DNA from: Anthocerotibacter panamensis C109
GTDB taxonomy: Bacteria > Cyanobacteriota > Cyanobacteriia > Gloeobacterales > Anthocerotibacteraceae
DNA length: 64,000 bases
NCBI RefSeq assembly: GCF_018389385.1
Contig: NZ_CP062698.1
Location: forward strand, 3,752,667 to 3,816,666
Direction: 5' to 3'
The notes below the pieces were generated by a model. It saw only the letters and a list, made by a program, of their open reading frames with translations. It searched no databases and was not told where the DNA came from. Position numbers and translations under genes: made by a program. Below are positions 3,667-8,566 of the stretch, one piece after another (positions within the stretch are counted from its first letter, which is position 1; each line of letters begins with the position of its first letter).

Positions 3667-4221
3667 CTAGCTAGGCTTAACCACGCCACAGGCAAGACGC
3701 GCCCCTCCGGCTTCAGCAGCAGTGCCGTTGGCCTTGATCTCATCTGAATTTTTGTGCACGATCACCGCGCTCCCGTTGTCATCAAAGAGCGTGACCGGAC
3801 CCTTGCTCAGGCTGATCCGGTTGCTGATCGTCTCCAGGTGGCCTTCGCCGCGGTCATTGACTTCCAGATTGGGCAGGTCACCTAGGTGGTAGGGGTGGTT
3901 TGCTTCGACCGGGGTGGAGGAGCCAAAGGGACCAGGGTCGAAGTGACCTTTTGCAGAACTGAAGGGGACTTCGGTGGATAGATCGCAGGAGCCGACCTCG
4001 TGCAGGTGCAATCCATGCCGCCCCGGAGTCAGGACTTTGGGATCGCCTTTGATCAAAGCGCTGATGCGGACATAGCCATTGGCTTGCTGTGCGAACGTCA
4101 CAGTCCCTGAAATTCCCCCCGGACCACTGATCTTGGCCTCGGCTTGCTGTGCTTGGACGACCAGTGGCGATAATCCAAAGACAATACCCAGACCCATCCA
4201 CACCTTGAAACGAAGCTTCAT
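3667..4221 (-). CDS. sodC: Cu/Zn superoxide dismutase, exported
   Basis: A 184-residue precursor with a clear signal peptide (about residues 1-24, ending VVQAQ). The start ATG has GGAGG four bases upstream. The metal-site motifs are all visible: HGLHLHEVGSC (Cu ligands and first disulfide Cys), GHFDP and HPYHLGDLPNL (bridging and Zn ligands), AVIVHKNSDE (Cu His), and GGARLACGVV (second disulfide Cys). It dismutates superoxide in the periplasm or thylakoid lumen. A second, disrupted sodC-like gene lies at 30503-31147, so this is the only intact Cu/Zn enzyme in the window. It reads leftward from a short shared region with the divergent DsbA-like gene. Confidence 0.95.
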   Translation of the reverse strand: MKLRFKVWMGLGIVFGLSPLVVQAQQAEAKISGPGGISGTVTFAQQANGYVRISALIKGDPKVLTPGRHGLHLHEVGSCDLSTEVPFSSAKGHFDPGPFGSSTPVEANHPYHLGDLPNLEVNDRGEGHLETISNRISLSKGPVTLFDDNGSAVIVHKNSDEIKANGTAAEAGGARLACGVVKPS

Positions 4222-5644: not shown

Positions 5645-8035
5645 CTAGCCCCGCGCCTGCAAAGGAGTGTACTCGACCTGACGTGGCCCTGTGTAGATCT
5701 GCGTCGGGCGGAAGATACGGTTGTTGGAGAGTTGTTCGCGCCAATGGGCTAACCACCCCGCCACCCGAGAGATAGCAAAAACAGGTGTGAAGATATCGCT
5801 GGGGATGCCCATTTTTTCGTAGACGATCCCGGAATAGAAGTCCACGTTCGGATAGATACCCTTGGGGGCCAGTAATTCCATGCAGACCTGCTCCACTTCC
5901 TGGGCGATTTTATAGGTGGGGCTGGGGCTGTAGATCTTGAACAGCTCTTTGACTAACTGTTGTAGGACCAGAGCACGCGGGTCTTTAGTGCGGTAGACGC
6001 GGTGGCCTAGGCCCATGATTTTTTCTTTGCGAGCAAGGCGTTCTTGGATGAAGCTGCGCGCCTGGGTCGCGTCGCCAATCTGTCCAAACATAGCAAGGGC
6101 TTCTTCGTTGGCCCCGCCATGGAGAGGGCCGGAGAGCGCTCCAATGGCGGAGGTGATGACGGTATAGGGGTCCGCTAGGGTCGAGGCGGTGACCAAAGCC
6201 CCAAAAGTCGAGGCGTTGACGGTGTGTTCGGCATGGAGAATCAAGCAGACCTCGAAGATGCGTGCCACCCGTGGGTCGGGGACTTGCCCGGTGAGCATAT
6301 AGAGGAAGTTGGCGCTGTGGCTGAGGTCGTCGCGGGGGGCGACCGGGTCGTTGCCTTGGCGCATTTGGTGAAACATCGCCACCAAAGTCGGCAGTTTCGC
6401 CACTAGATTGACCACGGCCTCGCGGGTGTAGTGCTCGTCGGTCAATTGGTACTCGCCCAAAGGATAAAAAAGCCCAAGCGCGGCGACACTGGCTTGGAGG
6501 GCATCCATTGGGTGTCCCTGGTCCGGGAAACACTTGATCATGTCGCGGATCGGATACTTTACCCGGCGCTGATGGAGGATATCTTCTTCGAACTGGTACA
6601 GTTGTGCTTTTGTCGGCAGATAGCCCCAGATGAGTAGGTAGGTGGTCTCCAAAAAAGTGCTGTGGGTAGCCAGTTGCTCGACAGGGATACCCCGGTATTC
6701 CAGAATGCCCCGCGCTCCGTCCACAAAACTGATATTCGAGCGGGTGGCAGGCACCCCAGCAAGTCCCGGCACATAGCTCTCTGGCGAAACCGTAGCAGCA
6801 TCGGAGTGGTCCGTGGGGAGGGCGGGTTCCCCGAGGTCCACAGGGTTCCAATCGCGCGCACCACTACGCGCTTGGAGCGGAAGCCAGGAACGTTCACGCG
6901 GACCGACGTAGACCTGTTCGGGGCGGAAGATGCGGTTGTTGGAGAGTTGTCCGCGCCAGTGAGCGAGCCACCCCGCCACGCGGGAAATGGCAAAAATGGG
7001 CGTGAAGATGTCGCTAGGGATGCCTATTTTTTCGTAGACCACCCCAGCGTAGAACTCCATATTGGGATAGACCTTTTTGGGGTTGAGCAGGGCGGTGGCA
7101 ACACGCTCTACCTCCAGCGCAATCTGATAGGAGAGACTCGGACCAAAGAGCCGGAACAGGTCTTCAGCAAGCTGTTGCAGGATAAGGGCGCGCGGGTCTT
7201 TAGTGCGGTAGACGCGGTGGCCTAGGCCCATAATCTTTTCGTTGCGGGCGAGGCGCTCTTTGATGAAGTCTATGACAGCAGCGGTGACCTCGGCAGAGGA
7301 TTGGTGGCCTAGACAGTTGCGGCTGATCTGCCGAAACATTTTGAGGGCTTCTTCGTTGGCCCCGCCATGGAGAGGGCCGGAGAGCGCTCCAATGGCGGAG
7401 GTGATGACGGTATAGGGGTCCGCTAGGGTCGAGGCGGTGACCAAAGCCCCAAAAGTCGAGGCGTTGACGGTGTGTTCGGCATGGAGAATCAAGCAGACCT
7501 CAAAGATGCGTGCCACCCGTGGGTCGGGGACTTGCCCGGTGAGCATATAGAGGAAGTTGGCGCTGTGGCTGAGGTCGTCGCGGGGGGCGACCGGGTCGTT
7601 GCCTTGGCGCATTTGGTGAAACATCGCCACCAAAGTCGGCAGTTTTGCCACCAGCCGGATCGTGACTTCGTAGGCGTAGGATTCATCGGTGAGGCGCTGA
7701 CTCCCCAGGGGATAAAAAAGCCCAAGCGCGGCGACACTGGCTTGGAGGGCATCCATTGGGTGTCCCTGGTCCGGGAAACACTTGATCATGTCGCGGATCG
7801 GATACTTCACCCGGCGATGGTGGAGGATATCTTCCTCAAAGCGCTGGAGTTGGGTTTTGGTCGGCAGGTGTCCGAAGACGAGCAGGTAGGCCGTTTCCAA
7901 GTAGGTGCTGTAGTTGGCGAGTTGCTCTATCGGAATGCCCCGGTACTCTAAGACCCCGGCTTGACCATCGATAAAGCTGATGTTAGAGCGCGTCGCGGGT
8001 ACACCGGCAAGACCGGGAACATATTGACCGTACAC
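5645..8035 (-). CDS. Tandem two-domain citrate synthase (two full-length copies in one polypeptide)
   Basis: A single 796-residue frame holding two complete citrate synthase folds: copy 1 about residues 1-395, an acidic linker about 396-420, copy 2 about 421-796. The offset is exactly 416 codons. The start is GTG with AAGGAGG seven to eight bases upstream. Both copies keep the substrate-binding HAEHTVNASTF, the catalytic His loop GPLHGGANEEAL, and the second His in GLGHRVYRTKDPRA. The catalytic Asp motif is intact only in copy 2 (NVDFYSG); copy 1 reads NMEFYAG, Asp to Glu. Citrate synthase condenses acetyl-CoA with oxaloacetate at the entry of the TCA cycle and works as a homodimer. A covalently linked pair could form an internal dimer with one normal and one altered site. 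Two blocks are almost identical at DNA level between copies (see findings). A 2-methylcitrate synthase role cannot be excluded. Confidence 0.93.
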   Translation of the reverse strand: MYGQYVPGLAGVPATRSNISFIDGQAGVLEYRGIPIEQLANYSTYLETAYLLVFGHLPTKTQLQRFEEDILHHRRVKYPIRDMIKCFPDQGHPMDALQASVAALGLFYPLGSQRLTDESYAYEVTIRLVAKLPTLVAMFHQMRQGNDPVAPRDDLSHSANFLYMLTGQVPDPRVARIFEVCLILHAEHTVNASTFGALVTASTLADPYTVITSAIGALSGPLHGGANEEALKMFRQISRNCLGHQSSAEVTAAVIDFIKERLARNEKIMGLGHRVYRTKDPRALILQQLAEDLFRLFGPSLSYQIALEVERVATALLNPKKVYPNMEFYAGVVYEKIGIPSDIFTPIFAISRVAGWLAHWRGQLSNNRIFRPEQVYVGPRERSWLPLQARSGARDWNPVDLGEPALPTDHSDAATVSPESYVPGLAGVPATRSNISFVDGARGILEYRGIPVEQLATHSTFLETTYLLIWGYLPTKAQLYQFEEDILHQRRVKYPIRDMIKCFPDQGHPMDALQASVAALGLFYPLGEYQLTDEHYTREAVVNLVAKLPTLVAMFHQMRQGNDPVAPRDDLSHSANFLYMLTGQVPDPRVARIFEVCLILHAEHTVNASTFGALVTASTLADPYTVITSAIGALSGPLHGGANEEALAMFGQIGDATQARSFIQERLARKEKIMGLGHRVYRTKDPRALVLQQLVKELFKIYSPSPTYKIAQEVEQVCMELLAPKGIYPNVDFYSGIVYEKMGIPSDIFTPVFAISRVAGWLAHWREQLSNNRIFRPTQIYTGPRQVEYTPLQARG

Positions 8036-8128
8036 GGGCAGACCTCCTTCGGAGACTGAGCGGTGAAGTGAATGGGGGTAAGCGTATGGTAAAGGCTGGG
8101 CATCCTGATTTCAAGAAAGGGATGACCC

Positions 8129-8566
8129 ATGGAAATCAGTCAGCAGCAGATGGTGATGGCGATGGCGGTCCAAAGCGGTTGCTATAGCCTGCTAGAACGT
8201 ATCCGCCAGATGCGTGACCAGAACACCGTGCAACCAGAGTCGGTGGCCTTATTGCTCCGCGCCGGGGACCTGAGCTACCGACAACTGCTGGCATTGCAGC
8301 AGTGCCTCATAAACTTGGCTCATAGTGCTCCAACCCCGGCAACGCAAACCCATAGCTTGCGTCTATTTGGGCTGACGCAACAGGCTTATACTATGGTCAG
8401 TCAGTTCAACTTGGACCGCAAGACCCTCCTACTCGGTACGCGCTCTGCCCCCCAAAGCTCCTACGCTCAAATTGCACACCGCATCGAGCGCTCCCTCGAT
8501 ACCTGGGAAGCCGAGGTGATTGGGGCGATACTCATTCTGGCTGCACAACTCCAGGAAATCCAATAG
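8129..8566 (+). CDS. Hypothetical protein
   Basis: 145 residues, not recognised. It is predicted helical and cytoplasmic, rich in Gln, Leu and Ala, with no signal or membrane segment. It is transcribed divergently from the citrate synthase gene, about 95 bp away, so the two share a promoter region. The start ATG at 8129 has AAAGGG about ten bases upstream. The length and codon use look like those of the neighbours, which supports a real gene, but I can name no family. Confidence 0.6.
   Translation: MEISQQQMVMAMAVQSGCYSLLERIRQMRDQNTVQPESVALLLRAGDLSYRQLLALQQCLINLAHSAPTPATQTHSLRLFGLTQQAYTMVSQFNLDRKTLLLGTRSAPQSSYAQIAHRIERSLDTWEAEVIGAILILAAQLQEIQ

Follow-up and report, generated by a model that had tools for sequence, protein, structure and literature searches.

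A gene in Anthocerotibacter panamensis C109 raised the question of whether two citrate synthase (CS) domains joined in one polypeptide work as two equal enzymes or as an unequal pair. The gene lies in the window, the 64,000-nucleotide stretch of DNA analysed here (NZ_CP062698.1, positions 3,752,667 to 3,816,666 of the forward strand), in a genome assembled as one contig of 4,187,797 bases. The first-pass annotation had described an unbroken 796-residue frame with a ribosome site, and this was borne out, as the frame was open from GTG to TAG with AAGGAGG 7 nt before the GTG (Table 1); the sequence rules out any break of the frame at the linker by a stop codon or frameshift, which had been named there as evidence against a fusion. 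Two full-length matches to PF00285 (profile positions 1-357 and 1-356; 453.5 and 433.6 bits, cut-off 27) were found, and the CS model NF010639/PRK14036 matched two stretches and scored 1216 bits for the whole protein versus a cut-off of 502. The two domains, referred to as half A and half B, were identical at 305 of 375 aligned residues (81%). The annotated offset of exactly 416 codons was correct at the domain starts (residues 5 and 421) but not later, dropping to 405 past an insertion of ~11 residues that was found in half A of the window protein only; half B lacked it, as did the two halves of the relative described below. Similarly, the linker, originally called short and acidic, was about 30 residues long with 6 acidic residues and 1 basic residue; the linker of the relative was Pro-rich with 3 acidic residues, and acidity is therefore not a conserved feature. 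Promoter and terminator scans returned nothing relevant to these questions. A 145-residue frame without a Pfam match ran divergently from it (window 8129-8566, + strand), and a copper/zinc superoxide dismutase with an apparent signal peptide (PF00080, 103 bits) was encoded at window 3667-4221 (- strand).

Table 1 Features of the fused CS gene, in window coordinates, and loci of the separate Glu-type CS genes
Feature	Position	Strand	Residues	Description
Fused CS gene	5645..8035	-	796 aa	GTG start, TAG stop, single uninterrupted frame
Ribosome-binding site	8043..8049	-		AAGGAGG, 7 nt upstream of GTG
Half A	6866..8023	-	5-390	Complete CS fold, Glu at catalytic Asp position
Half A, second homogenised stretch	7706..7807	-	77-110	
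Half A core	7343..7645	-	131-231	Conversion tract
Half A insertion region	7271..7324	-	~238-255	~11 aa
Glu327 codon	7055..7057	-	327	GAG, half A, E. coli D362 position
Linker	6776..6865	-	391-420	~30 aa, predicted disordered, sequence not conserved
Half B	5648..6775	-	421-796	Complete CS with full catalytic set
Half B counterpart of second stretch	6458..6559	-	493-526	
Half B core	6095..6397	-	547-647	Likely conversion donor
Asp732 codon	5840..5842	-	732	Half B, E. coli D362 position
Glu-type CS loci	L066 (1719-2855), L067, L068, L072, L088, L094, L096-L099			Separate genes, other genomes

The first-pass annotation had also proposed looking for the same fusion in related genomes, and it was found in Candidatus Cyanaurora vandensis LV9, which belongs to the same family and another genus. 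The match covered query residues 4-796 in one frame at 79% identity on contig NZ_JAAXLT010000218.1, a scan of GTDB contigs gave identical coordinates, and the gene likewise began with GTG, preceded by AAGGAG. Recurrence in an independent genome goes well past what chance would produce. Among the matches listed, sorted by E-value, the whole 796 residues were matched by just these two of 390 cyanobacterial genomes, and the next best match after Cyanaurora was a single-domain protein (600 bits versus 1398). Single-domain CS was present in every Gloeobacteraceae genome examined and in the nearest sister lineage, G002. Beyond Cyanobacteria the survey covered plasmid records, whose ten best hits spanned ~1.1-1.3 kb, as expected for a gene with one CS domain. 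An assembly or annotation artefact, in which the tandem of one gene was merged, has a next to negligible probability. Near-identical DNA in parts of both halves would fit such an error, but the halves of the window protein are themselves ~20% different, and the independent Cyanaurora genome carries the fusion on a single contig with clearly different halves; the artefact was rejected on this evidence and the tandem, whose reality had been left to be checked, is real. An ordinary second CS elsewhere in the genome was rejected as well, because none besides the fused gene was found in either fused genome. As the sole CS in both genomes, the fused gene must supply the CS activity of the cell, and its product would by this reasoning condense acetyl-CoA with oxaloacetate.

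We examined the catalytic residues of both halves in an alignment referenced to E. coli GltA (L061) and containing 47 single-domain rows. In the two fused proteins, half A carried Glu at the position of D362 and Met at that of V361 (E. coli numbering); half B of both species and all single-domain rows carried Val-Asp, and in the wider set Asp occupied the D362 position in 64 of 64 D-type rows, both B halves included. The catalytic histidines H264 and H305 were kept in both halves, as were the oxaloacetate-site residues H229, R314, R387 and R407, along with H226 and F383. The triad of His264, His305 and Asp362 was thus complete in half B and incomplete in half A, where both histidines remained and Asp362 was replaced by Glu in each of the two fused sequences, which represent two genera. 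The claim of two full citrate synthases consequently stands for the folds, both of which are complete, but not for the catalytic set, as half A is without the catalytic Asp. E. coli D362 corresponds to D375 of the pig enzyme, and the active-site aspartate of CS, going by the title of one study, reportedly matters for binding acetyl-CoA and not oxaloacetate. Asp375 of animal CS (E. coli D362) removes the acetyl-CoA proton (PMC5830745) and is counted, alongside H274 and H320, among the catalytic residues (PMC5518231); in the E. coli enzyme, D362 is catalytic and V361 is highly conserved (PMC11167817).

Phylogenetic analysis placed the two A halves in one clade (100/97), the two B halves in another (99/92) and all four together (100/100), within Gloeobacterales beside G002 (95/77). 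A second tree, limited to the C-terminal part that lies outside the conversion and masked at the Asp/Glu site, again recovered A (100/95), B (100/81) and the four together (100/98), with G002 beside them (96/86). Separate A and B clades imply one duplication and fusion before the two genera split, and an asymmetry between A and B that is older than that split. In the C-terminal tree the stem branch of half A was about three times as long as that of half B (0.27 versus 0.091). Pairwise estimates from the two species gave a dN of 0.15 versus a dS of ~2.5 between the A halves, and a dN of 0.12 with saturated dS between the B halves. Both halves are under purifying selection, and a dN so far below dS shows that half A is no pseudogene in decay.

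Similarity between the halves was uneven along their length. In the window genome the DNA of the half A core (residues 131-231) was 99.3% identical to half B with a dS of 0.027, and that of residues 77-110 was 98% identical, versus 71% in the C-terminal part. Recent gene conversion homogenised the core. In amino acid sequence the half A core resembled half B of Cyanaurora (96%) more than its half A (90%), and the transfer was therefore most likely from B to A. Glu327 lies outside the conversion tract and was retained despite the conversion of the neighbouring core from B.

AlphaFold2 modelling of the whole chain with 57 sequences gave a pLDDT of 82 and a pTM of 0.75 (pLDDT 55 with 12 sequences instead), with a CS fold in each half and a disordered linker, residues 397-429 being below pLDDT 50. 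A Foldseek search with the model ranked Synechococcus elongatus CS first. VIA-align superposed single CS chains on the model with Z of ~40-51, mostly over 330-363 residues at an rmsd of 1.6-4.2, and the superpositions ran, for example, over residues 75-777 or 6-497 of the model. Because they mix residues of both halves, the halves are in contact in the model, and the predicted contact fits an intramolecular dimer of the CS type. The exchange of segments between halves in the model is probably an ambiguity arising from the identical stretches.

The functional unit of CS is a dimer in which each active site uses an Arg of its neighbour, a cross-interface role that CS structures generally assign to R407. 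A half with a weak site of its own can therefore still complete the site of the other half. We hypothesized that the fused protein forms an asymmetric CS dimer within one chain, in which half B is catalytic and half A is attenuated and serves a structural or regulatory role, and we give this slightly better than an even chance. Halves A and B would pack together as separate subunits do in an ordinary CS dimer, with half A supplying cross-interface residues, for instance its counterpart of the E. coli Arg R407, that complete the half B site. The site of half A itself would be strongly attenuated in deprotonation of acetyl-CoA; it may still bind oxaloacetate, making half A a structural partner and possibly a substrate sensor. 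Each dimer would then have a single main active site where an ordinary CS has two that are identical. The first-pass guess that a linked pair could enforce an asymmetric dimer gains support from the conservation of the Asp-to-Glu change in half A only and from the longer half A stem.

The Glu form of the CS motif was not confined to the fused protein, with matches in 28 of 380 genomes searched; the matches fetched from beyond the CS groups proved to be other proteins. Seven genomes of one family (f28; genera g105 and g113), which the data suggest is an Acaryochloris-like group, carried a separate second CS gene with the Asp-to-Glu change. An Asp-type CS was also present in six of these seven genomes and was not found in the seventh, which is 87% complete. 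In one genome (G234) the Glu-type gene was cut by a contig end, and in another (G221) the Glu-type and Asp-type genes lay ~220 kb apart on the same contig. The Glu-type sequences formed their own clade (100/97), and the trait required two changes on the tree, so that the Glu-type CS arose independently of the fused half A. The two share Glu at the catalytic base, but the Acaryochloris-like enzyme is an unfused separate gene product that retains Val or Ile at V361. We do not argue for convergence beyond this residue: 3 of 190 conserved positions were shared with half A (P ~0.02 when D362 is included), and N295 and K356 occur in E. coli together with Asp. Two further CS sequences are recorded here. 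The second CS of genome G076 (L092, 1495-2634) had HGGAAED versus HGGANEE elsewhere, beside the catalytic His, and a long branch (0.5), and kept the Asp. The 8.1-Mb genome G221 contained a third-CS remnant with several in-frame stops (G221:C2:2036950-2037990).

How the change in half A should be read depends on what Glu can do at this position. Chemically it is still a base that could do the job, and both halves may accordingly be active as two different working sites, the half A Glu still serving as base with an altered rate, affinity or acyl-CoA preference. Retention of the carboxylate, the intact remainder of the half A active site and purifying selection on half A all agree with this, as does the persistence of the separate Glu-type gene in another lineage, which could mean that a Glu-type CS is functional. 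Yet the occurrence of Asp in every D-type row suggests that Glu works less well, and the neighbouring, highly conserved V361 is altered in half A too; we regard two working sites as unlikely, though a contender to be taken seriously. A bolder version of the asymmetric dimer would give half A the dedicated role of a sensor, binding oxaloacetate and perhaps CoA with inefficient turnover at best and controlling half B; it would also see in cyanobacteria a recurring Asp-to-Glu partner CS that arose on two occasions, in one case fused and in the other as a separate heteromer-forming subunit. This we consider speculative and rather improbable.

The fusion might instead have done no more than fix a dimer by chance, with the site of half A drifting under weak constraint and the half kept as a covalent scaffold, without any regulation, since half B could neither fold nor complete its site without a partner. 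The longer half A stem in the C-terminal part, the variable linker and the refreshment of the half A core from half B by conversion are compatible with such a history. However, the Met-Glu pair and the intact substrate-binding residues persist in two genera with saturated dS, and drift would more likely have affected other residues as well, leaving this a distinctly doubtful account. It is more doubtful still, to the point of being highly improbable, that cells contain ordinary separate subunits, produced by cleavage within the linker or by additional translation of half B from an internal start. The linker is disordered, and an in-frame GTG (codon 422) does stand at the start of half B; but just a weak purine stretch precedes this GTG, the relative has no start codon there and its linker ATG lacks a ribosome site, which makes separate production of half B unlikely on sequence grounds, and the linker sequences differ, hence there is no shared cleavage site. 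The asymmetric single-chain dimer is the reading we prefer.

The closest characterized relative is the S. elongatus CS (NF010639/PRK14036; PDB 8an1, 8bp7 and 8rjk), which has the same fold as the fused protein (62-64% identity in the fold search) and active-site residues that match those of half B. That enzyme has a single-domain subunit whose dimers assemble into hexamers and Sierpinski triangles (PMC11041685). The fused protein differs from it in having two domains per chain and, in half A, Glu in place of the catalytic Asp. A parallel in architecture comes from eukaryotic phosphofructokinase and the 100-kDa hexokinases, in which a subunit was duplicated and fused and one half is weak or inactive with a regulatory role. 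The fused CS has in common with these an in-frame tandem of paralogous halves conserved across genera and a conserved change of a catalytic residue in one half; the folds are unrelated, those enzymes are eukaryotic, and regulation is proven there whereas it would be a conjecture here. ATP-citrate lyase also contains a CS-type fold inside a longer polypeptide, but as a single CS-like domain with unrelated domains, for another reaction and with no CS-CS tandem. A literature search, for which most subscription journals lay outside the range, found no paper on CS fusions, the CS of Acaryochloris or the D375E/D362E variants, and a study of central carbon metabolism in these lineages (PMC13237429) does not mention citrate synthase. 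Within that literature a fused CS with one altered half has no precedent, while other enzymes are known in which a subunit was duplicated and fused and one of the halves lost catalysis.

CS is a textbook homodimer and has for decades served studies of the mutual influence of two identical active sites. In a linked asymmetric pair each half can be altered separately without mixing of subunits, and cooperativity and interface sharing thereby become directly testable. The results also point to a second, independent origin of a Glu-type CS in cyanobacteria, a form that no paper we found describes. For the organisms themselves, the favoured reading would mean that an early-branching, thylakoid-less cyanobacterial lineage depends on a lopsided enzyme for the step that opens the citric acid cycle.
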